From NCBI RefSeq assembly GCF_018279705.1, contig NZ_CP036498.1, forward strand, positions 1,257,001-1,321,000: DNA of 64,000 nt, read 5' to 3'. This DNA comes from Tardiphaga alba. GTDB taxonomy: Bacteria; Pseudomonadota; Alphaproteobacteria; Rhizobiales; Xanthobacteraceae. Under the pieces are notes generated by a model that worked only from the letters and a program-made list of their open reading frames with translations, made no database searches and was not told where the DNA came from. Of this stretch, positions 18,788 through 34,489 are shown piece after piece. Within the stretch, counting starts at the first letter, position 1; every line of letters begins with the position of its first letter. The position numbers were made by a program, and so were the translations under genes.

Positions 18788-19558
18788 ATGTGTACCGTAG
18801 CCCAACGACGCGATGACATGCAGGCCGTGGTCCGACGCCCGATGCGTGGCCGCGACTTCAGCCGCTGGTGCCAGGCTGCGCTCAAAATTGCCGTCCTGCT
18901 GTCGATCATGTCCGCGGCCCTGGCGTCGGCGATCAGGGCCAGCGACGACGCTCGCGACTTCGCGCCGATGCAATTCAATATTCCAGGTCAACCGCTGGCG
19001 TCGGCCTTGCAGACATATAGCAGGGTCACCGGCGTGCAATTGCTCTATGAGAGTGGCGCCACCAATGATCGCGATGCGCCTGCGATCACGGGCGAAATGA
19101 CCCGGGATGCTGCGCTGCGCCTGCTGATTGCCGATACCGGGTTGATGATCCGCTACACGCGCGCGAACTCCATCACATTGGTGCCGGCCATCGCGGATCC
19201 CGACGCGCCACCCATGGCCGTATTCGATCAGGCCGATCTGGCGCTCGATACACTGCTCGTGCGCAAGCAGAGGCCAACGACGGACGCGTCGCAATTGCGC
19301 GCTTACAGCGGTGTCATTCAAGCCGACATTCAACAGGCACTCCGCAAGGAGTCCAAAACGCGCAACGGTGTCTACAGCGCCGGGATCAAGCTATGGATCG
19401 ATGGTCCGCGCACGATCCGGCGGACCGAGCTGTTTCGCTCGTCCGGCGATCATGAGCGCGATGATGCGATCGGACGACTGCTGGATGGTTTGCAGGTCAG
19501 CCAGGCGCCGCCAGCGCATACGCCGCAGCCCGTCATGGTCATGATTACGGTCCGATAG
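18788..19558 (+). CDS. Secreted STN-domain protein with a TonB-C-like end
   Basis: This 256-residue protein has a signal sequence around residues 32-52 (AVLLSIMSAALASAIRASDD). Residues about 59-135 form a secretin/TonB N-terminal (STN) domain (FNIPGQPLASALQTYSRVTG, then MTRDAALRLLIADTGLMIRY), the signalling domain found at the start of FecA-like receptors. The last 80 residues look like a TonB C-terminal fold (WIDGPRTIRRTELFRSSGDH, ending PVMVMITVR). A free STN domain without a barrel is unusual. The next gene, a TonB, starts 2 bases later. I infer a periplasmic signalling partner for the FecR-like protein encoded downstream. The start could also be the ATG at 18818. Confidence 0.82.
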   Translation: MCTVAQRRDDMQAVVRRPMRGRDFSRWCQAALKIAVLLSIMSAALASAIRASDDARDFAPMQFNIPGQPLASALQTYSRVTGVQLLYESGATNDRDAPAITGEMTRDAALRLLIADTGLMIRYTRANSITLVPAIADPDAPPMAVFDQADLALDTLLVRKQRPTTDASQLRAYSGVIQADIQQALRKESKTRNGVYSAGIKLWIDGPRTIRRTELFRSSGDHERDDAIGRLLDGLQVSQAPPAHTPQPVMVMITVR

Positions 19559-19560
19559 CG

Positions 19561-20298
19561 ATGGCCGAAACGCAACCAGCAACATTCGATCGATACGGGC
19601 ATGAGCCGAACAAGGCGCCCGCATTCGATTTCCATGATGAGGCCGATACGGGCATGTCCGCGACCGGGCGCCTGCTGATCGGCAGCACGGTGATCGTTCC
19701 GGTCCTTGTCGCCGTCGGCGTCTATTGGTTGCATCAACTGCCGGTCGGGCCGGCGCTGAAGACCGGCAACTCCACGATCCAGGTCGAACTGATCCCGGCG
19801 CCCGTGCCGGCCACCGAGTTCAAGCAGGCCGCGCTCCAGCAGAGCCCGCCCATTGCAGATTTTCAGGTCGAACCGAAGATCGTCGAACAAAGTCTCGCGC
19901 CTGTTGAGCAGGAGACCGCGCCGCAGCCGCAACCGGCGCCGTCACCGCGCCCGGCCGCAGTGCCTGAACAGAAGCCGGCGGGTGGTGGACAGAGCCGTCC
20001 GATGCCGGTCGGCACAGCGTCGCGCTTTCAACGCGTTCTGCTGACGCATATCGAGCGCTATCAATCCTATCCGGCGACGGCGCGCCGTGACGGCCACGAA
20101 GACACGGTGTTTGTGGTGTTTGCCATGCGGCGCGACGGGACTGTTGCGCGTGTCGAGATCAAATCGAGCTCCGGACAACCGATCCTGGATCAGGCCGCTA
20201 TCGAAACGATCCGGCGTGCACAGCCGCTCCCGAAAATCCCCGCTGACATGCCGGATATCCTCACGGTGTCGGTGCCTGTGACCTTTCGCGCGCGCTGA
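19561..20298 (+). CDS. Energy transducer TonB
   Basis: The 245-residue protein has a single N-terminal membrane helix (LIGSTVIVPVLVAVGVYWLH, about residues 38-57), a proline-rich linker near residues 115-140 (EQETAPQPQPAPSPRPAA) and a C-terminal TonB domain (residues about 155-245) with RYQSYPATARRDGHEDTVFV and IKSSSGQPILDQAAIETIRR. TonB spans the periplasm and passes inner-membrane proton energy to an outer-membrane partner. The gene is coupled to the STN gene and followed after 118 bases by the ECF sigma gene. No exbB/exbD adjoins it directly; these occur 4 kb downstream. Confidence 0.92.
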   Translation: MAETQPATFDRYGHEPNKAPAFDFHDEADTGMSATGRLLIGSTVIVPVLVAVGVYWLHQLPVGPALKTGNSTIQVELIPAPVPATEFKQAALQQSPPIADFQVEPKIVEQSLAPVEQETAPQPQPAPSPRPAAVPEQKPAGGGQSRPMPVGTASRFQRVLLTHIERYQSYPATARRDGHEDTVFVVFAMRRDGTVARVEIKSSSGQPILDQAAIETIRRAQPLPKIPADMPDILTVSVPVTFRAR

Positions 20299-20357
20299 CG
20301 ATATTCATGCTCGCTGATGCGAGATGCGATCGTTCCGTAATTAATCTGTCATCTCTG

Positions 20358-20394
20358 ACCGGTAACACCGTGCCTGTTTGAAGGTGTAACCGGT
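20358..20394. promoter_or_regulatory. Inverted repeat upstream of the ECF sigma gene
   Basis: ACCGGTAACACC (20358-20369) and GGTGTAACCGGT (20383-20394) are reverse complements with one mismatch, around a 13-base spacer. The repeat lies 22 bases before the sigma-factor start and 60 bases after the tonB stop. It has no T tract, so an operator or a structured leader is more likely than a terminator. The protein that would bind is unknown. Confidence 0.5.
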
Positions 20395-20416
20395 TGATGC
20401 ATAAGGGCTGTGACCG

Positions 20417-20956
20417 TTGAGTGGCGTAGATCGTACGACATTGCGTGATGTCCTTGCGGCCGATTACACCGGCCTTTTCAAGCGTTTGACGCGTCGTCTC
20501 GGGAACTCGGAGCTGGCAGGCGAAGCTCTGCAGGACACCTTTTTGCGCGTCGAGCGGATGACCAACGCCACCGCAATCAGCAGTCCAAAAGATTACTTAT
20601 TCCGTATGGCGTTGAACGTCGCGACCGATCGCCGGCGTGTCGAGCAGCGCCATCTCAGTCTCGATGCGGTCGATGCCTTGCTCGATGTTCCCGATGACAG
20701 TCCGGATGCGTCGGCGATTGTCGAAGGCCGTCAGGATATCCAGGCGCTCGATCGTGCTTTGGCGGAACTGCCGGCGCGTGCTCGCCAGGTTTTCGTTCTC
20801 GCCGTCATCAAGAAAATGGCGGATCAGCAGATTGCTGCGCAGCTCGGAGTGAGCCTCCGGACTGTCGAGATCGATCTGCGCAATGCGTTGAAGCACTGCG
20901 CACAGAGGCTGGATCGCACTTTGATAAGACGTACGGGCGGACCACGCCCGCGCTAG
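20417..20956 (+). CDS. ECF-family RNA polymerase sigma factor (FecI-like)
   Basis: This 179-residue sigma-70 factor has only regions 2 and 4. Region 2 includes LAADYTGLFKRLTRRLGNSE and KDYLFRMALNVATDRRR; region 4 contains the helix-turn-helix MADQQIAAQLGVSLRTVEID. Together with the FecR-type gene that follows, it belongs to the FecI group that is held until a cell-surface signal arrives. The start is a TTG, and no better start fits. It probably drives the envelope gene set downstream, which is inference from position. Confidence 0.92.
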   Translation: MSGVDRTTLRDVLAADYTGLFKRLTRRLGNSELAGEALQDTFLRVERMTNATAISSPKDYLFRMALNVATDRRRVEQRHLSLDAVDALLDVPDDSPDASAIVEGRQDIQALDRALAELPARARQVFVLAVIKKMADQQIAAQLGVSLRTVEIDLRNALKHCAQRLDRTLIRRTGGPRPR

Positions 20957-21128: not shown

Positions 21129-21242
21129 GGTCTTCATCATTCTCGATTCAACCGATTAGAAGCTCCGCGACATCGATGACTCACATCATTTTTATGGTCC
21201 GGACTCCCGTTGTTCCCGCCTCGTCGGTTGGTTCGGACACGC

Positions 21243-22238
21243 ATGCGCACGGGATGCGGCGCCGTGGCTGAGCCCGTCGATGACAGCAATCTGCTCGAAC
21301 GGGCGATCGATTGGGTCGCGTTGCTGCGCTCCGGCAGTGCGACGACGGACGATGCCGATCGCCTGCAGCGTTGGCGCGCGCAAAGTCCGTCGCATGAAGA
21401 TGCTTTCCGGCAAGCCGCGCGGCTGTATCGCGATCTCGGCGCGATGGGGGCGGAGCTCGAGCGTGACAAAGTGCGTTCTCTGGCAGCGCGGTCGCCTGTG
21501 CGTCGGCTGGTCAATCGACGCTCGCTGATCGGTGGCGCCATCGCGGCATCCGCGGTCGGCTATCTGGCGATCAAGCCGCCGCTTGAGATGTGGCCATCAC
21601 TTGCGGAAATGTCGGCGGATTATCGGACCGGCAAGGGTGAGCAGCTCGATGTGGCGCTGGCGGAGAATGTGTCGCTGAAGCTCAACACGCAGACCAGCAT
21701 TGCGGTGCGTGGTAGCGGTATCAATCCGAGTGTCGAGCTGATCAACGGCGAGGCCGTGATCACCGCGAAACGGCAGCAGAGCGAACCGCTGGTCGTGGTC
21801 GCCGCGGCTGGCAAGATCGCGTCGGCGATGGGCGAGCTCAATATCCGCTGTATCGATGGCAGCGTGCTTGCGACCTGTCTTGCAGGCTCCATCACCGTCA
21901 CACATGGCGGCCGCAGCGTGGAACTCACGGCCGGCCAGCAGGTCTCTTACTCGGCGACCGATCCGCTTGGGCGTCCGGTCGCCATCACCGATCCCGGCAG
22001 TCTGTCGGCGTGGCGTGAAAAACTCCTGATCTTCAAGGACAAGCCGCTGGCTGCGGTGATCAGCGAGATCAATCGCTATCGTCCCGGCAAGATCGTGATT
22101 ACCGATAGCGAACTCGGGCGGCGTCTCATCAACGGCACCTTCCACACCGACAAGCTCGACGATTTCGTCGCGCAGGTTCGTCAATTGTATGCCGTGAAGG
22201 TTCGCTCCCTGCTGGGCGGCCTCGTTCTGCTTGGCTGA
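21243..22238 (+). CDS. FecR family protein (anti-sigma regulator)
   Basis: The protein has 331 residues from the ATG at 21243. An N-terminal cytoplasmic DUF4880-like segment (ERAIDWVALLRSGSATTDDA) is followed by a single membrane helix (RRSLIGGAIAASAVGYLAIK), a periplasmic FecR domain (YRTGKGEQLDVALAENVSLK onward) and a C-terminal STN-binding-type domain (FKDKPLAAVISEINRYRPGK, LINGTFHTDKLDDFVAQVRQ). FecR proteins read the state of an outer-membrane STN domain and control the paired ECF sigma factor. Here the candidate STN partner is the free protein encoded at 18788. Other starts (21210 TTG, 21264 GTG) are possible. Confidence 0.9.
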   Translation: MRTGCGAVAEPVDDSNLLERAIDWVALLRSGSATTDDADRLQRWRAQSPSHEDAFRQAARLYRDLGAMGAELERDKVRSLAARSPVRRLVNRRSLIGGAIAASAVGYLAIKPPLEMWPSLAEMSADYRTGKGEQLDVALAENVSLKLNTQTSIAVRGSGINPSVELINGEAVITAKRQQSEPLVVVAAAGKIASAMGELNIRCIDGSVLATCLAGSITVTHGGRSVELTAGQQVSYSATDPLGRPVAITDPGSLSAWREKLLIFKDKPLAAVISEINRYRPGKIVITDSELGRRLINGTFHTDKLDDFVAQVRQLYAVKVRSLLGGLVLLG

Positions 22239-22426
22239 CAAATAGCAACTCACATCGCTGAAAGTAGAGCCATCTCGCCTGCGGGATGTTCTTGCCATGC
22301 AATGGTCGATGCTGCTTGCTGATTCGGTCTTCATGTTTTTCTTAATTTTCTTTTGCGGGTTGAAAGCTGCCCAACCGTCTTCATGACATAGGGACCTGGT
22401 CGTGAGCGCATTGCTCGCGCCCAGCG

Positions 22427-22442: not shown

Positions 22443-22448
22443 GTATAA

Positions 22449-24215
22449 ATGCTTTCTATTCTTCGCGATGACACCGGTGCGGCCGTTCCGAAGCGGCGTC
22501 TTCTGCAATCGTCTGCGCCGGCGGCTCTGATCCTCGCCAGCATCGGTGCATGTGGTTCGCTCTCATCCGCTGACGCTGCGCCGAGCAAGCAGGTCGCCGA
22601 AAATTCTTCGCAGGATGCGAAGGTTGCCGCCAAGCCCAATGCGGATTCGGCCCAGGCGCCGGCCGCACCTGCCGAGCCGTTGCAGCGTTTTGATATCGAT
22701 GATTTTGCCGTTCAGGGCGCAGACAAGCTGCCGCAGATCGATATCGAAGAAGCGATCTATCCTTTTCTTGGCCCGAGCCGCACTGCCGACGACGTCGAAA
22801 AAGCGCGCGCGGCGCTGGAGAAGGCCTATCACGACAAGGGGTTGCAGACCGTCAGCGTCTCGGTCCCGCAACAGAATGCGCTCACCGGTCGTGTGATCCT
22901 CAAGGTCACCGAGATGAAGGTCGGGCAGTTGCGCGTGAAGAACTCGCGCTATTTCGATCTCGACAAGATCAAGGATCGTGCGCCGTCGCTGAAGCAGGGT
23001 GTCGTGCCAAATTTCAACGACGTGACGAAGGATATCGTCGGTCTCAACCAGTGGCCCGATCGGCGCGTCACCCCGGCGCTGCGCGCGGGCATTGCGCCAG
23101 GTACCGTCGACGTCGATCTGAATGTGGAAGACAAGGCGCCGTTTCATGGCAGCATCGAACTCAACAACCGGCGTTCGCCGAATACGACGGCGTCGCGCCT
23201 GATCGGCACCGTTCGCTACGACAATCTGTGGCAGCGCGGCCATTCGTTCAGCTTCACCTATCAGGTCGCACCTGAAAATCCGAACGACGCCGAAGTGTTC
23301 TCCGCTTCCTATATGGCGCGCCTTGAGGACGTGGACTGGCTCAATGTCCTGGTCTATGGCGTGAAGTCGAGCAGCGACGTCGCCACGGTCGGCGGCATGA
23401 ATGTGGTCGGTCCCGGCCAGATCATCGGTGCCCGCGCCGTGATGACGTTGCCGGCGCGCGAGAACTTCTTCCACACCTTCTCGGTTGGTGCTGACTACAA
23501 GCACTTCGACCAGACGATGCGTGACCTTTCCGGAAACGGTTATGGGACGCCGATCACTTACGTGCCTGTGGTGGCCAGCTATGGCGCGACCTTCCAGGGC
23601 GAAAAATCGCTTACGCAGCTCAATGCGTCGGTCACCGCAGCCATGCGACCGGCTGGGGACGACTGGCGCCGGTTCGATGACAAGCGTGCTTACGCGTCAG
23701 GCAGCTTCTCGCATCTGAATGTCGATCTCGCTCATACGCATGAATTGCCCGAGGGCTTCCAGTTCTGGGCAAAGGTGCAGGGGCAGATTTCAGACGGACC
23801 GCAGGTGTCGAGCGAGCAGTTCAGCATCGGTGGTCTCGATACCGTCCGCGGCTATCTCGAATCTGAAGTGCTCGGCGACGACGGCGTCGTCGGCAATGTT
23901 GAAATCCGGTCTCCTGATGTCGGCTCGATGCTGCAGAAGGAGATGAAGGACGAGACCGGCGAGGGTGCGCCGCGCTTCACGACGTTCAACGAATGGCGAT
24001 TCTTTGGCTTCGTCGATGGCGGCCATGTCCGCGTGCAGCGGCCGCTCACGGAACAGCAATCGACGTTCGATGTCTGGAGCTACGGCGCCGGCACGCGTTT
24101 CAAGTTCTTCGAAGGTGTCAACGGCATGGTCGCCTATTCGGTGCCGATGGTGAGCCAAGCCTACACGCATGCCGGTACCGGTCGCGTGAATTTCCGTATC
24201 TGGGGTGAATTCTGA
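22449..24215 (+). CDS. ShlB/FhaC/HecB family outer-membrane protein (TpsB-type, Omp85 superfamily)
   Basis: The 588-residue protein has a signal-like N-terminus, a flexible Ala/Pro-rich stretch to residue 80, a first POTRA domain at about 81-156 (DFAVQGADKLPQIDIEEAIY, GLQTVSVSVPQQ), a second from about 157, and then a 16-strand-type barrel. The hallmark VRGY motif of the lid loop is at residue 466 within GGLDTVRGYLESEVLGDDGV. TpsB proteins move large TpsA exoproteins across the outer membrane. No TpsA gene is present here; instead the stop overlaps the start of an ExbB-type gene. It may be the outer-membrane partner of the Ton machinery encoded around it, which is inference. Confidence 0.9.
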   Translation: MLSILRDDTGAAVPKRRLLQSSAPAALILASIGACGSLSSADAAPSKQVAENSSQDAKVAAKPNADSAQAPAAPAEPLQRFDIDDFAVQGADKLPQIDIEEAIYPFLGPSRTADDVEKARAALEKAYHDKGLQTVSVSVPQQNALTGRVILKVTEMKVGQLRVKNSRYFDLDKIKDRAPSLKQGVVPNFNDVTKDIVGLNQWPDRRVTPALRAGIAPGTVDVDLNVEDKAPFHGSIELNNRRSPNTTASRLIGTVRYDNLWQRGHSFSFTYQVAPENPNDAEVFSASYMARLEDVDWLNVLVYGVKSSSDVATVGGMNVVGPGQIIGARAVMTLPARENFFHTFSVGADYKHFDQTMRDLSGNGYGTPITYVPVVASYGATFQGEKSLTQLNASVTAAMRPAGDDWRRFDDKRAYASGSFSHLNVDLAHTHELPEGFQFWAKVQGQISDGPQVSSEQFSIGGLDTVRGYLESEVLGDDGVVGNVEIRSPDVGSMLQKEMKDETGEGAPRFTTFNEWRFFGFVDGGHVRVQRPLTEQQSTFDVWSYGAGTRFKFFEGVNGMVAYSVPMVSQAYTHAGTGRVNFRIWGEF

Positions 24216-26203
24216 TGACGATGGGGAGCGGACACATGAGCAAAGGCTCGAGCCTGCGCCGGAAAATGACAAATGCGGCTGCCGGGCTTGCGCTCGGCTT
24301 CACCGCAGCCATGACGCTGTTTCCGGCCACGGCGAATGCGTGGTGGAACGACGAATGGCAGCTGCGCAAGAAGATCAATATCGATGTCAGCGCCACCGGG
24401 GCCAACATCACCGATCCGATCGGTACCGTGCCGACGTTGGTGCGCCTGCATGCCGGAAACTTCCGCTTCAGCCTCGCCAAGGAAGACGGCAGCGATCTCC
24501 GCTTCGTCGCCACTGACGACAAGACGCCGCTGAAGCATCATATCGAAAAGTGGGACTCGCTGCTGGGCGAGGCGCTTGTCTGGGTGTCGCTGCCGAACGT
24601 GGCATCGGGCGCGAAGTCGGACTTCTGGCTCTACTACGGCAACAAGAAAGCCGCGGCGGCCAATGACGCCAAGGGCACCTACGACGCCGATACCGCGCTG
24701 GTCTATCACTTCAACGAGCGTGGTACGCCGGCGATCGACTCCTCGGTCTGGGCGAACAATGCGCAGAGCGTCGGCCAGGCGGCTGACGGTTCGCTGATCG
24801 GCAACGGTCTGCGCCTCGATGGTCGCAACATCGTGACGCTGCCGGCCTCGCCATCGCTCGGCATGGCTGACGGTGCACCTTTCACCTGGTCGGCCTGGGT
24901 CAAACCAGCTGCGATGGTGCCGAATTCGGCGCTGTTCAGCCGTCGCGATGGCGGCAATGGCATGGTGATCGGCTTCGACAACGGTTCGCCCTTTATCGAA
25001 GTGAGCAATGCTGCAGGCACGCAGCGCAGCGGCGTTGGTGCGCCGGTGGCTGCCAATTCCTGGCATCACCTCGCGGTCGTCGCTGCCAGCGGCACGGTCA
25101 CGATCTATCTGGATGGCGCGCCTTACGCGACCCTCAATGCTTCCCTTCCAGCGCTGACGGGTGTCGCGCGTCTCGGCGGCGATGCCCCGCCGCCGGCCGC
25201 TGCTGCCCCAGTCGCGCCCGCTGCTGATGCAGCGGCTCCTGTTGCCGACGGAACCGCCCCTGCCGTGGACGCGGCCGCAGCCCCTGTCGCTGTCGCGGCG
25301 ATGGCTGGTTTCGTCGGCGACATCGACGAACTGCAGATCTCCAAGATCGCGCGTTCGCCGGGCTTCATCAAATTCGCATCGACCGAACAGGGCAGCGATC
25401 CGACCAAGCTGATCGCGTTCAGCAATGATGAAGAAACCGCAAGCTGGATGTCGGGTCATTTCGCCATCATCCTGAAGTCGGTGACCATCGACGGCTGGAT
25501 CGTGATCGTCATGCTGATCGTCATGGCTGCGGCGAGCTGGATCGTCACTTACGATCGCGTCAGCTACATGAAGAAGCAGGCCGGTGCCAACGACCGTTTC
25601 ATGAAGAGCTTCCGCAAGCTCGCCGACAACCTGACTGCGCTCGATCGTGGCGAAGCGGATGAAAACGCAGCGGTCCTCGGTAGCAAGCTTGGCGAGGAAG
25701 AAGCGCAGATGGTTCGTGCATCGTCGCTCTACCGCATCTACCACGTGGGCGCCGAGCAGATCAGCCATCGCTTCGCCAATAACGAGATGATCCGCCTGAA
25801 TGGCGCATCGATCTCGGCGATCCGTGCGGCACTCGACAGCGTGTTCGTGAAGGAAAGCCAGCGCCTCAACAAGATGATGGTGGTGCTCACCATCTCGATC
25901 TCCGGCGGTCCGTTCCTTGGTCTGCTTGGCACCGTGGTCGGCGTCATGATCACCTTCGCGGCCATCGCGGAAAGCGGCGACGTCAATGTCAACGCCATCG
26001 CACCTGGCATCGCCGCCGCTCTTGTGGCGACCGTTGCCGGCCTCTTGGTCGCGATCCCCGCGCTGTTTGCCTACAACTATCTGGTGACGCGCATCGGCGA
26101 ACTGACCACCGACATGCAGGTGTTCATCGACGAATTCGTGACCAAGATGGCCGAGTTCTACTCCACCGAAGCGATCGTTGATCATCGCCAGGCGGCGGAG
26201 TAA
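24215..26203 (+). CDS. DUF2341-LamG ectodomain fused to MotA/TolQ/ExbB proton channel
   Basis: This 662-residue fusion has a signal peptide (about residues 1-42), then a DUF2341 domain starting NAWWNDEWQLRKKINIDVSA (42-150), and a LamG/concanavalin-like domain (about 160-390). The LamG domain is split by a low-complexity Ala/Pro insert (about 324-364). A transmembrane helix follows at about 424-446 (DGWIVIVMLIVMAAASWIVT), then a cytoplasmic loop and two more helices containing FLGLLGTVVGVMITFAAIAE and AALVATVAGLLVAIPALFAY, the ExbB/TolQ signature. The channel half conducts protons with ExbD; the outer half probably binds a glycan or protein in the periplasm. Ordinary ExbB is about 240 residues, so this is a large gain. 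ExbD starts 6 bases later. Confidence 0.9.
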   Translation: MTMGSGHMSKGSSLRRKMTNAAAGLALGFTAAMTLFPATANAWWNDEWQLRKKINIDVSATGANITDPIGTVPTLVRLHAGNFRFSLAKEDGSDLRFVATDDKTPLKHHIEKWDSLLGEALVWVSLPNVASGAKSDFWLYYGNKKAAAANDAKGTYDADTALVYHFNERGTPAIDSSVWANNAQSVGQAADGSLIGNGLRLDGRNIVTLPASPSLGMADGAPFTWSAWVKPAAMVPNSALFSRRDGGNGMVIGFDNGSPFIEVSNAAGTQRSGVGAPVAANSWHHLAVVAASGTVTIYLDGAPYATLNASLPALTGVARLGGDAPPPAAAAPVAPAADAAAPVADGTAPAVDAAAAPVAVAAMAGFVGDIDELQISKIARSPGFIKFASTEQGSDPTKLIAFSNDEETASWMSGHFAIILKSVTIDGWIVIVMLIVMAAASWIVTYDRVSYMKKQAGANDRFMKSFRKLADNLTALDRGEADENAAVLGSKLGEEEAQMVRASSLYRIYHVGAEQISHRFANNEMIRLNGASISAIRAALDSVFVKESQRLNKMMVVLTISISGGPFLGLLGTVVGVMITFAAIAESGDVNVNAIAPGIAAALVATVAGLLVAIPALFAYNYLVTRIGELTTDMQVFIDEFVTKMAEFYSTEAIVDHRQAAE

Positions 26204-26209: not shown

Positions 26210-26614
26210 ATGCAGCTCCAGAGCAAAGGCAAGCCGTACGACGACATCAACATCACGCCGATGCTGGATCTCGCTTACGTGCTGCTCATCATCTTCATCG
26301 TGATGACCACCGCGACGGTGCAAGGGCAGAAGGTCAATCTGCCCAAGGCATCCGCCGCGCCAAGCCTGGCCACGCCGACGACGAAGGCGATCACCGTCTC
26401 CAACGACGGCAAGCTCTTCCTCGACACCATCCCGGTGACGCTGCCCGAACTCGAGCAGCGTCTGGTGCAGCAGAAGGCGCTGACGCCGGATTTCCCCGTG
26501 GTGCTGCGCGGTGACGCGCAGACCCAGTACCAGAGCGTCATGGACGTTCTCGATCTGCTCGGCCGTATCGGCCTGTCGCAGGTCGGTCTCGCCACCAAGC
26601 CACTCGTGAAGTAA
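26210..26614 (+). CDS. exbD: Biopolymer transport protein ExbD/TolR
   Basis: The 134-residue protein has a short cytoplasmic N-terminus (YDDINITPMLD), one transmembrane helix (LAYVLLIIFIVMTTATV) beginning next to the conserved aspartate of PMLDLAYVLL, and a periplasmic ExbD domain. The aspartate is the proton-carrying residue known from E. coli ExbD Asp25. With the ExbB fusion it forms the proton-driven motor for TonB. It is tightly packed in the operon. Confidence 0.93.
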   Translation: MQLQSKGKPYDDINITPMLDLAYVLLIIFIVMTTATVQGQKVNLPKASAAPSLATPTTKAITVSNDGKLFLDTIPVTLPELEQRLVQQKALTPDFPVVLRGDAQTQYQSVMDVLDLLGRIGLSQVGLATKPLVK

Positions 26615-27107: not shown

Positions 27108-27847
27108 AAAAGCCTGCCAAAAAGTCTGCCCGCGAACAGGCTGTTTCCACCGAGGCATCGAGCAATCGCGGCGTCTATCTGCGTTACGGCGGCGCCGTTG
27201 CGGTCATCGCGCTGCTGTTTGTCGGCGGCTGGTTCGTGCTGATGAGCGGCGATGGCGCTCCGGCACCGAAGCAGGTTCGCGAACTGACGGTGGTCAATAT
27301 CGTGCCGCCGCCGCCACCACCTCCGCCGCCCGAGCAGAAGATGATCGAGCAGCAGAAGGTGACCGAAGAACCGAAGATGGTCGAGCAGGAGCGGGTCGAG
27401 GACAAGCCGGTTGAGAAGCCGGCGGACGATCCCGTGAAGGACGCAAAGACCGAAGAGCCGCCCGGACCGTTGGCGCTTGATTCAGCGCCGGCTGGCCCAG
27501 GCGACAATTTCGGTCTCATCGGCAAGCCCGGCGGCAGCCCCTATGGCGGTCGTGGTGGCGGTGGCAGCCGCTGGGGCTGGTACGCCTCGATCGTACAGAC
27601 GCAGATCGAAGCGGCAATCCGCGCCAATGAGCGCACCAAGAATGCGGTGATGCAGCTGCAGTTTCGCATCTGGGCCGACAATACCGGCCGCATCAACCGC
27701 GTCGAGCTCGTGAATTCCAGCGGCAGCGCGGAAGTCGATGCCGCCATCCGCAACGACGTCATCGGGCGGCTCACGCTGCGCGAGCCGCCGCCCAACGATA
27801 TGCCGATGCCGATCAACATTCGTGCAACCGGACGTAAGCCAACCTAA
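27104..27847 (+). CDS. TonB family protein (second energy transducer)
   Basis: The 247-residue protein has a membrane helix at about 29-47 (YGGAVAVIALLFVGGWFVLM), a run of nine prolines followed by a charged Glu/Lys/Pro linker (residues about 68-130), a glycine-rich hinge (GGRGGGGSRWGW) and a C-terminal TonB domain (VMQLQFRIWADNTGRINRVE, VNSSGSAEVDAAIRNDVIGR). It overlaps the preceding gene by 4 bases and is clearly the partner of the ExbB fusion and ExbD. Two TonB genes in one region, one next to the sigma system and one next to the motor, suggest different roles. Confidence 0.92.
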   Translation: MKKPAKKSAREQAVSTEASSNRGVYLRYGGAVAVIALLFVGGWFVLMSGDGAPAPKQVRELTVVNIVPPPPPPPPPEQKMIEQQKVTEEPKMVEQERVEDKPVEKPADDPVKDAKTEEPPGPLALDSAPAGPGDNFGLIGKPGGSPYGGRGGGGSRWGWYASIVQTQIEAAIRANERTKNAVMQLQFRIWADNTGRINRVELVNSSGSAEVDAAIRNDVIGRLTLREPPPNDMPMPINIRATGRKPT

Positions 27848-27906
27848 TTCGCCCGGCCAGAATGGCCGCGCAAGCATCACTTCGACGAGTAGGGGACTTG
27901 AGACCG

Positions 27907-29763
27907 ATGTTTGACAGAAAGACCGATACCGCCCGGCGCGTATGGCCGCTTGCAGTGTCGATGTGCGCATTGACGCTCGCTGTGCCCGCTCTGGCGCAAG
28001 ACGAGGGGAAGGCCGCGTCCAAGCGCCCCACGGTGTCCCGCGCCAAGCCGGTCGCGCCGAACTCGACAACCAGCCTCGTCAACCTGCTGATCAAGCAGGG
28101 TGTCATCACCGAGGAACAGGGAACAGCCCTGATCAAGCAGGCCGAAGATGAATCCTATGTGCAGCGGGAAGCTGCCAAGGGTGCGTCCGCGCGCGCCGAG
28201 GAAGCTGCGAAAACGGCTGCCGCCGCCGCAGCAGCCGCATCGCCCCCCGGCACCAAGCACGTGACCTATGTGCCTGAGATCGTGAAGCGCCAGTTGCGCG
28301 AGGATATCCGCAAGGAAGTGATGGCCCGTGCGCATAGCGAAAACTGGGCGTCGCCTGGCAAATATCCGGAATGGGCCCAGCGCATCCGTTTCTACGGCGA
28401 TCTGCGCGCCCGTTATGAAGGGCAGTTCTTCCCGACCGGAAACGATCCGCGCCAGATCAACTACAATGCGATTAATACCGGCAATCCGTACGATCTATCC
28501 GACAATACCAATTTCTATTGGGCGCCGACCTACAATACGAGCGAGAACCGCCAGCGCGCGCGCTTCCGCGTTCGCGTCGGCGCGGACGTGGATATCGCCG
28601 ACAATTTCGTCGGTGGATTCCGCTTCGCCAGCGGCGATAGCGGTTCGCCGGTGACGCTGAACCAGACCATGGGCGGCAGCGGCGGCAATTTCTCCAAATA
28701 TGCGCTGTGGATCGATCGCGCCTATTTGCGTTACCAGCCTTCCGAGGATTTCAGCTTCTCGGTCGGTCGCTTCGACAATCCGTTCTGGTCGCCGACGGAT
28801 CTCGTCTGGTATCGCGATCTCGGCTTTGACGGTTTTGCGGCCCAGCTGAAGCACGAAGTGTCGCCGGGCATCACGCCGTTCCTGGTGGCGGGTGCTTTCC
28901 CGACCTACAACACCGATTTGAACTTCGGCTACAATATCGATGCGAACGATCTGAAGAATGGCTTGCCAGGTAAGTTCCCCAGCAACGACAAGTGGATGTA
29001 TGGCGCGCAGGCCGGCGTCGGCGTGAAGTTCGATCCGCAGTCCAGCTTCCGCGTTGCTGTTGCCTATTACGATTTCACCGACACGCAGGGTCGGGTATCT
29101 TCGCCGTGCTCGGTCCTCGCAACGGCGGACATCTGTAATACGGATATCACTCGACCGTCCTTCGCGCAGAAGGGCAATACCTACAAAACGCTGCGGAACA
29201 TCATTCCTGAAGTCATGCCGGTGGGAACGTTCCAGCCTGCCTATCAGTATTTCGGTCTGGCCAGCCAGTTCCGTCCGGTTGTCGTCAGCGGTCAGCTCGA
29301 CCTCGGCGATTTCCATCCGGTCCATGTCGTGATCGATGCTGAATACGTCAACAACACTGCGTTCGATCGCAATGCGATGCTCGCGCTGCCGACGGCTTGC
29401 TGCAATGGCGGTGCGCTCTCGAACAACACTGCGCCGACATCGGACGGCAGCACGGGTCCCTTCAATGGCGGCAATCAAGGCTGGATGACCCGCGTGACCG
29501 TCGGTCACAAGCAGGTCAGGAAATTGTGGGATTGGAATGTCCACGCTGGCTACAAGTACCTCGAATCCGACGCCATGATCGACGCTTTCGTCGATCCGGA
29601 CTTCGGCCTCGGCGGTACCAACCTCAAGGGCTATTTCATCGGCGGCAATGTCGGCCTCTCCGACAATGTCTGGGCGACGCTCCGTTACATGAGCGCCAAC
29701 AACATCGCCGGAAACCCGTATGCCGTCGATGTTGTCCATCTCGACCTGAACGCGAAGTTCTGA
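27907..29763 (+). CDS. Putative outer-membrane porin with N-terminal helical segment
   Basis: The 618-residue protein has a signal peptide (LAVSMCALTLAVPALAQ), an SLH-like or coiled N-terminal part (LVNLLIKQGVITEEQGTALI and a following Ala/Glu-rich helix) that may contact peptidoglycan, and then a long beta-barrel from about residue 145 (RIRFYGDLRARYEGQFF onward) ending in LDLNAKF with the usual terminal phenylalanine. It resembles the putative porin family (Porin_5-like). It probably forms an outer-membrane channel served by the Ton genes upstream. The ATG at 27907 is preferred over 27862 because it begins the signal peptide. Confidence 0.87.
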   Translation: MFDRKTDTARRVWPLAVSMCALTLAVPALAQDEGKAASKRPTVSRAKPVAPNSTTSLVNLLIKQGVITEEQGTALIKQAEDESYVQREAAKGASARAEEAAKTAAAAAAAASPPGTKHVTYVPEIVKRQLREDIRKEVMARAHSENWASPGKYPEWAQRIRFYGDLRARYEGQFFPTGNDPRQINYNAINTGNPYDLSDNTNFYWAPTYNTSENRQRARFRVRVGADVDIADNFVGGFRFASGDSGSPVTLNQTMGGSGGNFSKYALWIDRAYLRYQPSEDFSFSVGRFDNPFWSPTDLVWYRDLGFDGFAAQLKHEVSPGITPFLVAGAFPTYNTDLNFGYNIDANDLKNGLPGKFPSNDKWMYGAQAGVGVKFDPQSSFRVAVAYYDFTDTQGRVSSPCSVLATADICNTDITRPSFAQKGNTYKTLRNIIPEVMPVGTFQPAYQYFGLASQFRPVVVSGQLDLGDFHPVHVVIDAEYVNNTAFDRNAMLALPTACCNGGALSNNTAPTSDGSTGPFNGGNQGWMTRVTVGHKQVRKLWDWNVHAGYKYLESDAMIDAFVDPDFGLGGTNLKGYFIGGNVGLSDNVWATLRYMSANNIAGNPYAVDVVHLDLNAKF

Positions 29764-29765: not shown

Positions 29766-30359
29766 ATGCGCAAACAACTGTTCCCCATTGTTGCGGTCAT
29801 GGCCTCGCTTGTCAGCACCGGTGCGCATGCCCAGTCGGAGACCGACAAGCTGCGTGAAGCACTGCGCAGCCTGACTGCGCAAACCCGCTCGCTGGAAGAT
29901 CAGCGGGCATCCCTGCAAAGCAAGGTGGCGGATGCCGAGCGCGAAAAGGCTGCGCTGACGGCGCAGATCGCTGCCGCCAAGGCGCAGGTCAAGGAAGTCG
30001 AGAAGACCCATCGCGAGGCGGTGGATGAATTCAACCAGCGCCTGGAAGATCGAAACCAGACGCTGGAAAAGTGGAAGGCGGCCTATGAAGAAGCCGCCAC
30101 GGTGGCGCGCGCCAAGGATGCGGAGCGTGCCAAGTTCGAGGGAGAGGCGACCGCCTATAAAGCAAGCACCAAGAGCTGCGTCGCCAAGAATGGCCAGCTC
30201 ATGAAGGTCGGTCGTGAATTGCTGCGCCGCTATGAAGGCGTCTCGTTCGGTGACATCGCCGTCATCAATGAACCGCTGATCGGTGCACGTCGTGTCGAAG
30301 TCCAGAACATCCTTCAGGACTACGACGACAAACTGCTCGAGCAAAAGGTTATCCAGTAA
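29766..30359 (+). CDS. Periplasmic coiled-coil protein
   Basis: The 197-residue protein has a signal peptide (RKQLFPIVAVMASLVSTGAH, cut after AHA) and a long coiled coil at about residues 24-130 (LREALRSLTAQTRSLEDQRA and on, rich in Glu, Lys, Ala and Gln). A short conserved-looking end follows (SCVAKNGQLMKVGRELLRRY, YDDKLLEQKVIQ). It starts 2 bases after the porin stop and its stop overlaps the PPIase start. It may be a periplasmic spacer or a chaperone for the porin; no enzyme motif is visible. Confidence 0.83.
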   Translation: MRKQLFPIVAVMASLVSTGAHAQSETDKLREALRSLTAQTRSLEDQRASLQSKVADAEREKAALTAQIAAAKAQVKEVEKTHREAVDEFNQRLEDRNQTLEKWKAAYEEAATVARAKDAERAKFEGEATAYKASTKSCVAKNGQLMKVGRELLRRYEGVSFGDIAVINEPLIGARRVEVQNILQDYDDKLLEQKVIQ

Positions 30360-31408
30360 TGTCTCAACGTTCCTCCATCGCGTTGGCGACGGTGGCCGGT
30401 CTGGCCGTCGCGTCGGCGCTCGTGTCGCCTTCTCTCGCGCAGACGGCGATGCAGCCGGGCCAGCCGCGCGTCGCTCAGGCTCCTCCGGCTCCGGCCAGGC
30501 AGCCGGTGCGTCCGGCGGCGCCTGCCGCTGCAGCTCCGGCTGCGCCAGCGGCCAGCGCGGTCGCTGCTGCCAAATCGTCGGGTGAAGTCGTCGCTCGGAT
30601 CGGCAATAGCGATGTTACTGCCGACGACATGCGCGCCTTCATCGCCGCGCTCGGTCCGCGCGATCAAGCCGCTGTGGCGCAGGATCCGGCTTTGCTCAGC
30701 CAGGCCGTGCGCATCATGTTGTCGAATCGTCTGGTGATGCAGGAACTCGTCGCAAAGAAATACGACAAGCAGCCGCAGATCGAAGCTCAGCTCGAAAAGG
30801 TCCGTGAAAACGCGCTCGTCGAGATCTATCTGCAGTCGGTGTCCAATCCGCCGGCGAATTTCCCGGGCGAGGACGATCTGCAGAAGGTCTATGACGCCAA
30901 CCGTGCCTCGTTCCAGGTGCCGCGCCAGTATCAGCTAGCCCAGATTTATGTCCCCGTGCCCAAGGATGCAGATAAGGCAACGGTTGATGCGGCGAAGAAG
31001 AAGGCAGACGACGTCCAGCGGAAGCTGAAGGCGCCAGGAGCGGACTTTGCAGCCATCGCGCGCACCGAGAGTGCAGCGAAGGAAAGCGCCGAGCGCGGCG
31101 GTGATCTCGGCCTGTTGCCGGAAGATCAGATCCGTCCGGAAATCCGTACGCAGATCGCTGGTCTTGCGAAGGGTGGTGTATCGGATCCGATCACGCTCGA
31201 CGACGGCATTCACTTCATTCGTCTAATCGACACAAAAGCGGCTTATACGCGCACTCTGCCGGAAGTTCGCGAACAACTGGTTCAGCAGATGCGAACCCAG
31301 CGCGCGGCCGTGTTGCGGCAGAATTATCTCGCAGAACTTTTGAAGCAGAAACCGCCGATCATCAACGAGCTGGCTCTCACCAAGCTCCTCGACGGCAAGA
31401 AGAACTAA
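30359..31408 (+). CDS. Peptidylprolyl isomerase, parvulin (PpiC/SurA-like)
   Basis: The 349-residue secreted protein has a signal peptide, an Ala/Pro-rich tether (residues about 35-75), a SurA-like helical chaperone part (VVARIGNSDVTADDMRAFIA, LLSQAVRIMLSNRLVMQEL) and one parvulin domain at about 195-295 (RQYQLAQIYVPVP, ERGGDLGLLPEDQIRPEIRT, VSDPITLDDGIHFIRLID). Such proteins help outer-membrane barrels fold in the periplasm. Being co-transcribed with a TpsB, a porin and secreted proteins, it is probably their dedicated foldase. Confidence 0.92.
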   Translation: MSQRSSIALATVAGLAVASALVSPSLAQTAMQPGQPRVAQAPPAPARQPVRPAAPAAAAPAAPAASAVAAAKSSGEVVARIGNSDVTADDMRAFIAALGPRDQAAVAQDPALLSQAVRIMLSNRLVMQELVAKKYDKQPQIEAQLEKVRENALVEIYLQSVSNPPANFPGEDDLQKVYDANRASFQVPRQYQLAQIYVPVPKDADKATVDAAKKKADDVQRKLKAPGADFAAIARTESAAKESAERGGDLGLLPEDQIRPEIRTQIAGLAKGGVSDPITLDDGIHFIRLIDTKAAYTRTLPEVREQLVQQMRTQRAAVLRQNYLAELLKQKPPIINELALTKLLDGKKN

Positions 31409-31419
31409 GGAGTATCAGT

Positions 31420-31920
31420 ATGTCCGATACCAATCTCGCCAGCCTGACGCTGGAATCGCTGCGCGACATCATGCAGGGCTCGGGCTACCGCGTTGAGCTC
31501 GTCTCGGATGCGGCAGCCAATGTCTCGCTGCTGCGCTCGTCGACCGCTGGCTTTGCCTTCGATGTCCGCCCCGGTAACCGGCTCGCCGCCGATGACAAGA
31601 GCTTTGTCGACTTCACCTTCAGCGCCTGGCTGAATGTCGAAGGCGAGCTTCCGCTCGATATCGTCAATCGTTGGAACGCGCTGCGTCGCTTCGGCCGGCT
31701 GCAGCTGGTGCCGGGCTTCCTCGCCATGACCATGGACGTCTCCGTGATCGGCGGCGTCGCGCCCAATTATGTGCGCGCGCAGGTCGAGATCTGGGATCAT
31801 CTGGTTCAGGCACTGGTGCCCTATCTGCGCGAAGAACTGCAGAAGGTCACGGCGCAGACCCCGGCCGCAGTCGCTCCGGCGGCGCCGGATGAGGTGCCTG
31901 CCGAAGCCAAGGTTGCCTGA
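31420..31920 (+). CDS. YbjN domain-containing protein
   Basis: This 166-residue soluble protein of the YbjN fold shows SLTLESLRDIMQGSGYRVEL, then FVDFTFSAWLNVEGELPLDI and IVNRWNALRRFGRLQLVPGF, a pattern shared with type III secretion chaperone-like YbjN proteins. It has no signal peptide. An AAGGAG ribosome site precedes the ATG by 8 bases. Known YbjN proteins affect stress and motility indirectly. Its place here suggests a chaperone or regulatory role for one of the envelope proteins. Confidence 0.85.
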   Translation: MSDTNLASLTLESLRDIMQGSGYRVELVSDAAANVSLLRSSTAGFAFDVRPGNRLAADDKSFVDFTFSAWLNVEGELPLDIVNRWNALRRFGRLQLVPGFLAMTMDVSVIGGVAPNYVRAQVEIWDHLVQALVPYLREELQKVTAQTPAAVAPAAPDEVPAEAKVA

Positions 31921-31930
31921 TAGGTCCGTC

Positions 31931-32758
31931 GTGATAAATGCAAGCCGTGCAGCATCCCGTGATTGCCGTAACGCGCGTCATGCGCGCGTTGCGCTGTCAT
32001 GCACTGCCGGTTTGCTGGCCGTCTGGGCATCAGTGGCGAGCGCCGAGCCCGGCGACAAGATCCGCGTGGCCTCGGTCGTTGCCGAGGCTCCGCAAGTCTC
32101 TGCCGAAGGCAGCAAGCCGGCGGAGCGCGCCAAAGCGGATGCGCCGCCGGCATCACCGATGACCCCATCCCCGATCCGCGCTGCAAACCCGCGCGCGCTC
32201 TATCGGGCTCTGATCGAACGCGAAGTGCGCCACACCAATTTGCCGGCCGATGTGGCCGAAGCTGTGATGGGTGTGGAAAGTGGCTATGTGCCGACCCGGA
32301 TTGGCGCCGATGGCGAGATCGGCCTGATGCAAGTGATGCCGCCGACAGCGCGCATGCTCGGCTATACCGGATCGATGGAAGAATTCGCAGCACCCGAGAT
32401 CAACATCAAATACGGCGTGCTGTATCTCTCGCAGGCCTGGAGCAGGGCCGGGGGCGATCTGTGCACGGCGCTGATGAAGTATCGCGCCGGTCATGGTGAA
32501 ACCCGCTTCTCGCAACTGTCCGTCGATTATTGCATCAAGGCGCGCGCGCGACTGGTGGCCATGGGCTATCCGGTCAGCGGCACCGTGCCCGTCGCGACCT
32601 TCGGCTTTCGGCCCGGCGGCAGCGCATTGGCGATGGCCAGCTGCCGCAAGCGATGCCTGACTTTGGGCGGCGGTGGCCGTGTCGATTTCAACGCTTTGAA
32701 CAATCGCCTCGCTCAGGTCGCCATTCAGGTCTACAGTCCCAAAATTCCCGGAAAGTGA
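31931..32758 (+). CDS. Lytic transglycosylase domain-containing protein
   Basis: The protein has 275 residues from a GTG at 31931. A signal peptide (LSCTAGLLAVWASVASA) is followed by an unstructured Ala/Pro stretch and an SLT domain at about residues 92-205. The catalytic glutamate is in MGVESGYVPTRIGADGEIGL, followed by the MQVMPPTARMLGY motif and the YGVLYLSQAWSRAGGDLCTA segment. It cuts peptidoglycan to make room for trans-envelope machines or during turnover. In this operon it may open the wall for the Ton/TpsB assembly. The frame is open further upstream, but only this start gives a signal peptide. Confidence 0.9.
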   Translation: MINASRAASRDCRNARHARVALSCTAGLLAVWASVASAEPGDKIRVASVVAEAPQVSAEGSKPAERAKADAPPASPMTPSPIRAANPRALYRALIEREVRHTNLPADVAEAVMGVESGYVPTRIGADGEIGLMQVMPPTARMLGYTGSMEEFAAPEINIKYGVLYLSQAWSRAGGDLCTALMKYRAGHGETRFSQLSVDYCIKARARLVAMGYPVSGTVPVATFGFRPGGSALAMASCRKRCLTLGGGGRVDFNALNNRLAQVAIQVYSPKIPGK

Positions 32759-32764
32759 TGCATC

Positions 32765-33178
32765 ATGTTTGTCCGGCTTGTCGGCGTGATGATGATCGTT
32801 GCCATACCATCGGCCCTGGCACGGGATCTGCCACCGATCTCGGTGACGCCGCATGATGCGCCGCCGAAGCCCGAACTGATCATCGGCGGATCTGGCGGCG
32901 CGGCCGTGCCTTCGCGCCAGCAACAGCACCAGCGTTGCGTCGATGTCGAGGCTGGTGGCGCGCGCAGCTATGGCTGCCTCAACGAGACGCTGAAGCGCGA
33001 TGTGGACAAGGTCAATCCCAGCCTGAACCTCCCGCCGCTCGATGCGCGCTCGTCCGACACCAAGCTCGGCATCGTCAACATTCCGGCGGTGCAGCAGCAA
33101 TACGGCCAGAATTTCGGGCGTTCCATCGTGCCATTCCGCCCGCCGCAGCCGACCTTTAACGGCAATCCGCGGCGCTAG
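32765..33178 (+). CDS. Small secreted hypothetical protein
   Basis: The 137-residue protein has a short signal peptide (MFVRLVGVMMIVAIPSALA). The mature part is proline-rich and contains two cysteines (HQRCVDVEAGG and YGCLNETLKR) and a low-complexity end (FRPPQPTFNGNPRR). No family was recognised. It lies 6 bases after the transglycosylase gene, so it is exported with the same gene set. It could be a small structural partner; nothing more can be said. Confidence 0.75.
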   Translation: MFVRLVGVMMIVAIPSALARDLPPISVTPHDAPPKPELIIGGSGGAAVPSRQQQHQRCVDVEAGGARSYGCLNETLKRDVDKVNPSLNLPPLDARSSDTKLGIVNIPAVQQQYGQNFGRSIVPFRPPQPTFNGNPRR

Positions 33179-33185
33179 TCCCATT

Positions 33186-34007
33186 ATGTCTTCCGTGATC
33201 TCGACGATCTGTCTAGCGCCATCGAACGATCAGATCTGCGCGGGTTTGCCAAAGCTCTACCAGTGGCGGTCCGTGTGCGCGCTGACAGCTGTGGCGATCT
33301 CCATCTCCGCGGCGACGCCGGCAGCGGCGCAATTCCTGCTGCCGACGCGTACGGATATTCCGGCGCTGGTTCCACCAAAACCGCTGACCCGAGCTGACCT
33401 GCCGCCGGCTGAACGAGGTGAACGCGCGGGTACCGGCTTTTTCGTCGACGATCGCGGACACATCCTGACAGCGCGTCACGTCGTGCAGAGCTGCAGTCGC
33501 ATCGTCGTGCACAAGGAGGGGCGGAGCATGACAGCGAAGCTGGTCGCCGTCTCGACGCCATATGATCTCGCGCTCTTGCACACGCCAAAGACACGCGGTC
33601 TTGCAGCCGTGTTCCCCCGCAACGTCACTTCGGCGGTGAACGATATGGTCTTTGCGGCTGACTACACAAATCTGCCGACCACGGTGACCCGCGGCGGAAT
33701 GCTTGCGAACGCATCGGTGGGGAAGACCGCCGGCGGTGACGAGGCCGGTCATATCGCCATCACCTCTCCCGTGACCTACGGCGCCAGTGGCGCCCCTGTG
33801 CTGGATTCACGCGGTCTGGTCGAAGGCGTCATCAGCCGCAAGACCAACGTGAATCGCGTGCTGGCCGTGGGTGCTGCAGGTGCCAAGGCGTTCCTGGCAT
33901 CGAACAATATTCGCCTGCAGGAAGACGACCGGCCGCAGATCAGCGGATCGGCATCGCGCGCCCATCGCGCTGCCAGCATTTCAGCAGGCATCGTTTGTCT
34001 GAACTAG
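33186..34007 (+). CDS. Secreted trypsin-like serine protease
   Basis: The protein has 273 residues with an N-terminal export signal (CALTAVAISISAATPAAAQ). The S1 protease core holds the histidine in ILTARHVVQSC, the aspartate in TPYDLALLHTP and the serine in VTYGASGAPVLDSRG, where the usual GNSGGP is GASGAP. No PDZ domain follows, so it is a short DegP-like or trypsin-like protease. In this operon it could degrade misfolded envelope proteins or process a partner. The start at 33186 follows the preceding stop by 7 bases. Confidence 0.87.
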   Translation: MSSVISTICLAPSNDQICAGLPKLYQWRSVCALTAVAISISAATPAAAQFLLPTRTDIPALVPPKPLTRADLPPAERGERAGTGFFVDDRGHILTARHVVQSCSRIVVHKEGRSMTAKLVAVSTPYDLALLHTPKTRGLAAVFPRNVTSAVNDMVFAADYTNLPTTVTRGGMLANASVGKTAGGDEAGHIAITSPVTYGASGAPVLDSRGLVEGVISRKTNVNRVLAVGAAGAKAFLASNNIRLQEDDRPQISGSASRAHRAASISAGIVCLN

Positions 34008-34021
34008 AGGAGCATGTTGCG

Positions 34022-34489
34022 ATGGCACAGTCGAAAGCATCGTCCCACTTAACACAGAAGTCTGGCAGGCTACGTGCGCTGCTGGCTTCGCTTGGTCTCA
34101 TTACGATTGCCGCGACGCCGGTCGTTGCGCAAGGGCTCGACTATCGCAGTCCGGATGCTGCGCCGCCTGCCTGGGGGCAGTTCGCAAAGCTGGTAAAATA
34201 TCGCTTCGAGGAATGGATCGGCGCCGATGAAGCGGTCGCCAACCGTTTCCGCGGCTGGCTGAAAGAGACCGGCGGAACGGCCAACGGCGCGCCGGACTCG
34301 CTGATCGTCAAAGCCTGGCTCAATCCGGACGGCAGCGTCGAGAAAGTGTCGTCCGCACCACTGAATGACGAGCGCGCCAACAGCGATCTGCGCACCGTCC
34401 TGACCCGCGGCAATATCGGCGAAGCGCCGCCGCCCGAGATGTTGCAGCCGATCAATCTGCGTTTTTCGCTCAAGATCGCGAAAGACTAG
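34022..34489 (+). CDS. Small periplasmic protein with TonB-C-like features
   Basis: The 155-residue protein has a signal peptide (RALLASLGLITIAATPVVAQ). The mature end reads SLIVKAWLNPDGSVEKVSSA, then NSDLRTVLTRGNIGEAPPPE and QPINLRFSLKIAKD. This strand-helix-strand pattern with a PDG turn is like the TonB C-terminal domain, but without a membrane anchor or proline linker. GAGGAG lies 9 bases before the ATG at 34022, which decides the start. It closes the envelope operon. The TonB-C likeness is by eye only. Confidence 0.75.
   Translation: MAQSKASSHLTQKSGRLRALLASLGLITIAATPVVAQGLDYRSPDAAPPAWGQFAKLVKYRFEEWIGADEAVANRFRGWLKETGGTANGAPDSLIVKAWLNPDGSVEKVSSAPLNDERANSDLRTVLTRGNIGEAPPPEMLQPINLRFSLKIAKD

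Follow-up and report, generated by a model that had tools for sequence, protein, structure and literature searches.

Introduction

Among the described systems, the closest to the gene set reported here is PUMA3 (VreAIR) of Pseudomonas aeruginosa, which is recognised by an extracytoplasmic function (ECF) sigma factor and a FecR-like anti-sigma factor beside the protein VreA, and by a link to two-partner secretion (TPS), to ExbB and ExbD and to a porin of the PA0696 type. The gene set in question lies at positions 18788 to 34489 of a stretch of 64,000 nucleotides (hereafter the window; G000:C1 1257001-1321000) from Tardiphaga alba, whose 5.86 Mb genome consists of one contig. According to the accessible text of the PUMA3 papers, to which all statements cited here are limited, P. 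aeruginosa VreA is composed of an STN domain and a TolA/TonB-like domain, without a barrel (PMC2729926). In the absence of VreR, the genes pdtB, exbB2, exbD2, tonB4, PA0696 (putative porin), PA0697, PA0698 (YbjN) and PA0699 (PpiC) are upregulated, and the genes from pdtB to PA0699 mostly belong to the VreI regulon (PMC7035377), while the Pho boxes of the system are given in another report (PMC4971064). Rhodopseudomonas palustris has four PUMA3 copies, one with TpsB, ExbBD and PA0696 and three with TpsA, and fourfold PUMA3 clusters are also present in Janthinobacterium (PMC2729926). The inducing signal is called unknown in what is accessible of the VreAIR papers.

Then, what could a Ton motor do beside a two-partner secretion barrel? 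Two-partner secretion is commonly regarded as working without an energy source at the outer membrane. Here, we report that the T. alba gene set is probably a Ton-coupled two-partner secretion module of the PUMA3/VreAIR type with TpsA proteins as its substrates. An earlier reading of the window, made from the sequence alone (the sequence-only reading), had regarded the make-up as undescribed; it is in fact already known, having been noticed before but little studied, and it matches PUMA3/VreAIR as far as the accessible text goes (PMC2729926, PMC7035377). Two observations of the present analysis are new, that is, a conserved strand at the C-terminus of the TpsA proteins, and one TonB-type domain that, on profile comparison, is carried by both VreA and TonB4, far nearer each other than either is to canonical TonB.

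Gene content and the TpsA genes

The set comprises 17 open reading frames (ORFs), all on the + strand, and from the TpsB gene onward the ends of neighbouring genes overlap or sit within about 15 bp. The ORFs were named by Pfam, with cases below cut-off backed by profile comparison and PDB matches, and both the families and the one-directional arrangement agree with what had been noticed earlier. Family by family, counterparts of VreA, VreI, VreR, PdtB, ExbB2, ExbD2, TonB4, PA0696, PA0698 and PA0699 could be recognised, a match that rests on families and annotations, not on direct sequence comparison. The VreI-like ECF sigma factor (20417..20956, Pfam) and the VreR-like FecR anti-sigma factor (21210..22238, DUF4880 and FecR by Pfam, start codon uncertain) are next to a VreA-like gene (18788..19558). 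Linked to them are a PdtB-like barrel, TpsB (22449..24215, POTRA_2 and ShlB), whose nearest solved sequence is CdiB 6wim (2.5e-4), and Porin_5 (27862..29763), which has the position and annotation of PA0696. ExbB, ExbD and a TonB-type protein are found together, as in a Ton system, in the form of an ExbB fusion (24215..26203; DUF2341, Laminin_G_3 and MotA/TolQ/ExbB), ExbD (26210..26614, Pfam) and a TonB4-like protein (27104..27847, TonB_2), whose C-terminal domain is sister to that of VreA.

The 18788 protein had been taken for a free STN protein. It indeed has a signal peptide (by eye) and an STN domain without a barrel, but it also ends in a TonB_2-type C-terminal domain, as VreA does. Its Pfam matches are both under the curated cut-offs (STN, E 0.0017; TonB_2, E 3.3e-4). 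The STN part is supported by the FecA model (2.8e-9) and by solved signalling domains (2.5e-5), the PDB matches of residues ~60-136 being to those of the ferripyoverdine receptor, HasR and FecA, and the C-terminal part matches TonB4 by profile. Consequently, the stretch contains not two TonBs, as had been stated, but four TonB-like C-terminal domains, in the proteins at 18788, 19561, 27104 and 33995, the last by profile comparison. No TonB-dependent receptor was found within 18788-34489 by Pfam, in agreement with the earlier reading. Outside the module, 24 kb downstream, a TonB-dependent receptor with plug and barrel and no STN by Pfam is encoded at 58554-60851.

Within the window TpsA is absent, as had been stated, but the genome has four TPS-domain (TpsA) genes elsewhere. 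Each of them is directly downstream of an ECF-FecR pair with an STN gene also present, and at three of the four loci there is a VreA with STN above cut-off and a TonB_2 match (one above cut-off, two below). One TpsA is intact, with 4112 amino acids, the TPS domain at 141-397 and DUF3739 at 3898-4007. Two ShlB-type (TpsB) genes are present in the genome, and from co-occurrence we infer that the one at 22449 exports the genome's own TpsA proteins. Judged from the sequences compared, the VreA-VreI-VreR and TpsB-ExbB-ExbD-TonB4-porin set travels as one unit here, and the TpsA-type genes lie elsewhere in the genome, every one of them preceded by a VreI-VreR pair of its own.

The earlier reading had proposed that a Ton-energised transporter built on an Omp85-type barrel operates without TpsA, and both the window without TpsA and the Ton motor adjoining TpsB would suit such a machine. 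However, TpsA is encoded in trans here by four genes with the same kind of regulator, and a number of relatives have it within the cluster or next to it, among them loci labelled Magnetospirillum, Opitutae and Methylomonas. A TpsA-free machine is therefore very improbable.

Co-occurrence and gene order across genomes

Two genome sets were explored, consisting of 61 family genomes and 249 Pseudomonadota genomes. The full ExbB fusion and Porin_5 are found in the same 7 of the 61 family genomes (Fisher's test 2e-9, relatedness ignored). TPS-domain proteins occur in 27 of the 61, while frames of at least 3,700 amino acids occur in 7/7 module genomes and in 2/54 others (G018 and G034). DUF3739 and full-length Porin_5 are found in the same 6 of the 249 Pseudomonadota genomes, and two further genomes have partial or marginal Porin_5 matches. 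The recurring partner besides VreA is a giant DUF3739-type TpsA, present in 6/6 genomes with full-length Porin_5.

We also examined 48 TPS regions besides the own four, up to 6 kb upstream; in L159, L162 and L163 the TPS profile did not pick up the TpsA, and L161, which counts among the 25 non-module regions below, ends at the contig end. VreA-ECF-FecR is directly upstream of TpsA in 14/23 regions from six other module genomes (G046 3/5, G053 9/10, G004 2/2, G043 0/3, G028 0/2, G044 0/1), compared to 0/25 regions from non-module genomes. In G053, nine TpsA genes each have their own VreAIR and one Porin_5/ExbB-fusion module was found, a pattern of one exporter with many substrates.

A scan of contigs yielded 57 loci, 52 of them with a strong ExbB fusion, and 35 of these have at least 5 kb on each side (well-flanked loci). 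ExbD, TonB4, Porin_5 and the coiled-coil protein are present in all 35, TpsB in 32, PpiC in 23, YbjN in 19, VreA in 19 and TpsA within reach in 19, where it should be noted that the gene-order profiles were built from the same loci and that many loci are close relatives. The core genes do not scatter, and the earlier view of one co-inherited set, in which ECF and FecR link a Ton motor, a TpsB barrel and a porin, is borne out. An STN-bearing TonB-dependent receptor as constant partner elsewhere, which would have spoken against that view, did not appear; it is VreA that recurs (19/35 loci).

By contig labels, the module ranges over alpha-, beta- and gammaproteobacteria, Verrucomicrobia and one Bacteroidetes bin, a distribution wider than Pseudomonas. 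VreAIR was not in reach at the loci labelled Opitutae, Haloferula, a Bacteroidetes bin and Methylomonas. In addition, three loci (L090, L093, L101) have a tandem ExbD pair within the module, and Magnetospirillum fulvum has two very similar modules at contig ends (L078 and L079) with different TpsA genes, due to duplication or an assembly effect.

Could the Ton motor instead serve the Porin_5 barrel in energised nutrient uptake under phosphate starvation, with TpsB and TpsA as merely co-regulated neighbours? Uptake is the usual task of Ton systems, and the ExbB fusion, ExbD, TonB4, Porin_5 and the coiled coil stay together in 35/35 well-flanked loci versus 32/35 for TpsB. However, DUF3739 accompanies full-length Porin_5 in 6/6 of the genomes that have it among the 249, and in the TpsB-less loci L095, L101 and L103 the neighbour of the ExbB fusion is a giant ORF with the strand described below at its end. 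Moreover, VreA has a TonB4-type domain also at TpsA loci that gave no porin, and no TonB box was seen by eye in the porin N-termini. We consider it quite unlikely that the porin is what the motor serves.

The TpsA tail and the TonB-type domain

Complete DUF3739-type TpsA proteins have a common C-terminal strand, typically PSVIIVEVLGYGGG, after DUF3739. The tail was counted in 37 distinct ORFs from all available loci, chosen by a DUF3739-only profile with the tail left out; they are not independent, since they include the own four and about nine from G053. A [IV]xVEVLGYG-like strand is present in 32/37 C-termini, 31 by a strict pattern scored within the last 130 residues and L210 by eye (RVDVLGFG). 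The pattern was not found in other ORFs of at least 300 amino acids, with ORFs matching the TpsA profile set aside, while a similar pattern is present in 92 of the 120 best matches among 1592 database relatives of one C-terminus. Searched as a DNA pattern in the 61 genomes, the tail gave 11 matches, in 6/7 module genomes and 0/54 others, with 0 for the reversed control, and the four matches in the T. alba genome are located at the ends of its four TpsA genes. The seventh module genome, G004, has the variant IVEIIGYG, which is outside the DNA pattern. In one AlphaFold2 model of the last 262 residues of a TpsA, the mean predicted local distance difference test (pLDDT) is 72 and the beta-rich part is mostly confident, while the strand motif is in a stretch with pLDDT <50, predicted to be disordered, and followed by a helix. 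The modelled tail looks like a linear motif awaiting a partner.

The other ends of the two partners were also inspected. No TonB box was seen by eye on the TpsB N-termini, and in six TpsB there are merely 7-11 residues from the signal peptide core to POTRA; a loss of the TpsB plug helix was also considered, with 48/59 module TpsB but only 6/18 classic ones measurable. For TpsA, 44 of 65 distinct TPS-type N-termini were measurable. The distance from the signal peptide core to the first TPS strand is 105-171 residues for 23 TpsA of module genomes or loci, 29-45 for 20 classic TpsA (one at 65 from a misplaced core) and 46 for the Methylomonas TpsA (L100). The N-terminal extension was rejected as a general mark of these TpsA proteins, because several lineages are without it.

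Which protein could bind the tail? The C-terminal domains of the TonB-like proteins were compared profile versus profile. The VreA of the cluster matches the TonB4 C-terminal domain with E 3.3e-27 and 30% identity, the VreA of the TpsA loci with 2.3e-26, the 33995 family with 3.6e-9 and the adjacent canonical TonB (19561) with 0.012. Judged by score, VreA is related to TonB4 as closely as the VreA of the cluster is to the VreA of the TpsA loci. VreA retains this domain at examined TpsA loci that gave neither a porin nor TonB4, and its ligand should therefore go with TpsA. Motor and sensor may thus read the same TpsA tail.

We tentatively propose the following mechanism. Phosphate starvation, through the Pho box at vreA, and VreI would switch on the exporter, and TpsA would be threaded through TpsB from N- to C-terminus, its C-terminal strand remaining in the periplasm. 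TonB4, powered by ExbB and ExbD, could then pull, hold or release the tail through strand addition, much as TonB acts on a TonB box, and VreA, with the same type of C-terminal domain and STN, could recognise this tail too and signal the state of export to VreR. That the strand is worked by TonB4 and read by VreA is a possibility that we would not yet call probable. The same caution applies to the wider picture of a Ton-driven two-partner secretion, which is conceivable but short of likely: the TonB box would have been shifted from a receptor to the C-terminus of a secreted protein, a giant TpsA would sit in TpsB while TonB4 works its tail, and VreA would turn export status into ECF sigma activity, often with one VreAIR per TpsA.

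An explanation that shares the module reading and differs in the tail step is that the strand is merely a retention signal bound by the TpsB POTRA, by the barrel seam or by a chaperone, while the Ton motor acts elsewhere. Strand augmentation is a known binding mode of POTRA domains, and some TpsA (L095, L101, L103, L210) end no more than three residues past the strand, but such a signal leaves unexplained why VreA, TonB4 and the 33995 protein have one TonB-type domain in common. We regard plain retention as somewhat unlikely.

Several observations weigh against the module with its TpsA substrates, or against the tail step. In the T. alba genome, the STN protein at the fourth TpsA locus scores 28.1 bits (cut-off 28.4) and has no TonB_2 match by Pfam, and three of the four TpsA genes (L123, L124, L196) are split over 3, 2 and 4 frames, which could be decay or assembly error. 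Slipped-strand switching was rejected as the cause of these breaks, since the overlaps have no runs of at least 6 and a single run of 5. There is also the second ShlB-type TpsB (L125:10226-11944, G000:C1 near 5650348), with no TPS-domain gene nearby and a cyclic di-GMP phosphodiesterase-like gene ~1.5 kb away. Among relatives, VreAIR is not directly upstream in 9/23 TpsA regions of module genomes, and of the 35 well-flanked loci TpsB was not seen in 3, VreA in 16 and TpsA in 16, although L103, counted without TpsA, has a long ORF matching the tail-free profile. The strand is masked in L088 and strongly changed in L086, L098, L099 and L219 (5/37 together), and the N-terminal TpsA extension is absent in L089, L210 and L219 (by eye). 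Canonical TonB is matched by TonB4 (8.9e-6) and by the VreA of the TpsA loci (2.4e-5), and therefore all these domains are distant kin. At no more than three mismatches, 0/44 tpsA/tpsB upstreams have a Pho box, unlike pdtA/phdA. Finally, in P. aeruginosa VreA was dispensable for the regulon under phosphate starvation (PMC4971064) and unnecessary for VreI activity in vitro and for virulence (PMC7035377, PMC4971064), and a tonB4 insertion did not reduce VreI-induced lethality (PMC2729926). As far as the accessible text goes, these mutant data speak against a strong role of VreA, while secretion itself is outside that evidence.

Regulatory elements, accessory genes and genomic site

Upstream of vreA, a Pho-box-like triple repeat, CTGTTGC-AGGA-CTGTCAT-CCTG-ACGTCAT, with two mismatches could be identified in the sequence at 18632..18660 (+ strand), and a second Pho-box-like repeat precedes vreI at 20335..20352 (+ strand). 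Window-wide, such matches are not above chance (5 versus 4.24 expected), three of the five being before vreA and vreI. Across loci, the repeat with no more than three mismatches is present in 14/54 vreA upstreams, compared to a null mean of 0.46 and a maximum of 2 in 100 rounds; among these 14, L209 has it within a 1039-aa ORF that is probably not VreA. Before tpsB there is a conserved element, TTTTGCGGGTT...AACCGTCTTCATG, at 22351..22385 (+ strand). TGCGGGT is found in 22/44 tpsA/tpsB upstreams (null mean 1.0), many of which also have CGTCT further downstream, and by eye this resembles a FecI-type promoter.

The remaining genes are as follows. A canonical TonB (19561..20298; TonB_C, 1.4e-16) follows the VreA-like gene. 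Between ExbD and TonB4, the 26622..27107 gene encodes a small protein of 161 amino acids without a Pfam family, found, among named loci, only in those labelled Bradyrhizobium/Bradyrhizobiaceae, Tardiphaga and Rhodopseudomonas; its predicted model has an alpha-beta5-alpha core (mean pLDDT 69.5) and no Foldseek match at E <= 0.001. Behind the porin come the coiled-coil protein (29769..30359), which has the position of PA0697 and accompanies the porin in 35/35 well-flanked loci, a PpiC-type peptidyl-prolyl isomerase (30359..31408, as PA0699) and a YbjN family protein (31420..31920, as PA0698), the latter two by Pfam. The accessory SLT lytic transglycosylase (31769..32758, probably starting further downstream than the ORF), a small protein without a Pfam family (32765..33178), the accessory Trypsin_2 serine protease (33042..34007, ORF start probably too early) and a last protein (33995..34489), whose C-terminal domain is related to TonB4 (profile E 1.4e-16, no Pfam match), complete the set. 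The SLT, protease, 161-aa and last genes were found among the alphaproteobacterial loci only, and there in part of them, apart from one weak protease match in L103.

Bradyrhizobiaceae PARB1 and Tardiphaga BWSM_99 are collinear with the window over 18917-34495 and 18898-34485, respectively, both at ~78% identity, and in their available flanks (~4.7 and 1.7 kb) no match >120 bp was found beyond the module, while Tardiphaga robiniae matches the stretch in three blocks. In the same-genus genome G026, the left flank with tRNA-Pro extends to window position 18377 and the right flank resumes at 34513; the 8.1 kb between them (L224:2487-10619) is different DNA, which includes GntR, Gfo/Idh/MocA, ABC transport and Sir2 families. 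The collinear relatives and the other cargo of G026 between the same flanks therefore fit 18788-34489 being a real module. At the site directly after tRNA-Pro(CGG), two genomes of the same genus carry different cargo. Although the module starts directly after tRNA-Pro, tRNA-borne integration was rejected, as no exact 12-base repeat of tRNA-Pro is present on the + strand in 18401-40000. In addition, an apparently palindromic element, a repeat of ~90 bases at ~35946-36037 of the window, has dozens of matches on both strands of the T. alba genome and a few in G026.

Comparison with known systems

With P. aeruginosa PUMA3, the T. alba module shares VreA (STN and a TonB/TolA-like domain, no barrel), the ECF and FecR-like proteins, TpsB, ExbB, ExbD, TonB4, the porin, YbjN and PpiC, as well as the Pho box at vreA, here by sequence. 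However, in T. alba the TpsA genes are away from the cluster, at four other loci, the order of PpiC and YbjN is swapped, no Pho box was found at tpsB, and the type II secretion genes are absent among the 17. The canonical TonB, SLT, protease, 26622, 32765 and 33995 genes are extra. The PUMA3 clusters of R. palustris and Janthinobacterium, compared by their accessible description only, share the arrangement of one TpsB-ExbBD-PA0696 cluster and others with TpsA; in R. palustris there are three TpsA clusters, compared to four here.

The logic of ECF, FecR and STN is common to FecA/FecI/FecR cell-surface signalling, but here the set includes no TonB-dependent receptor and STN is fused with a domain of the TonB type. 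Classic two-partner secretion (FhaC/FhaB, CdiB/CdiA) likewise has a barrel with POTRA and ShlB and a TPS domain on TpsA, whereas here a Ton motor and a porin are attached and TpsA has ~4,000 amino acids with DUF3739 and the C-terminal strand. No Ton-powered two-partner secretion was recognised in the literature among the matches listed, most subscription journals being outside the search. A conserved substrate tail together with a reader domain common to motor and sensor makes the questions of the energy source and of the VreAIR signal directly testable. To the known system, the comparison would thus add a candidate mechanism, in which a conserved tail of the substrate may meet one domain in both motor and sensor.

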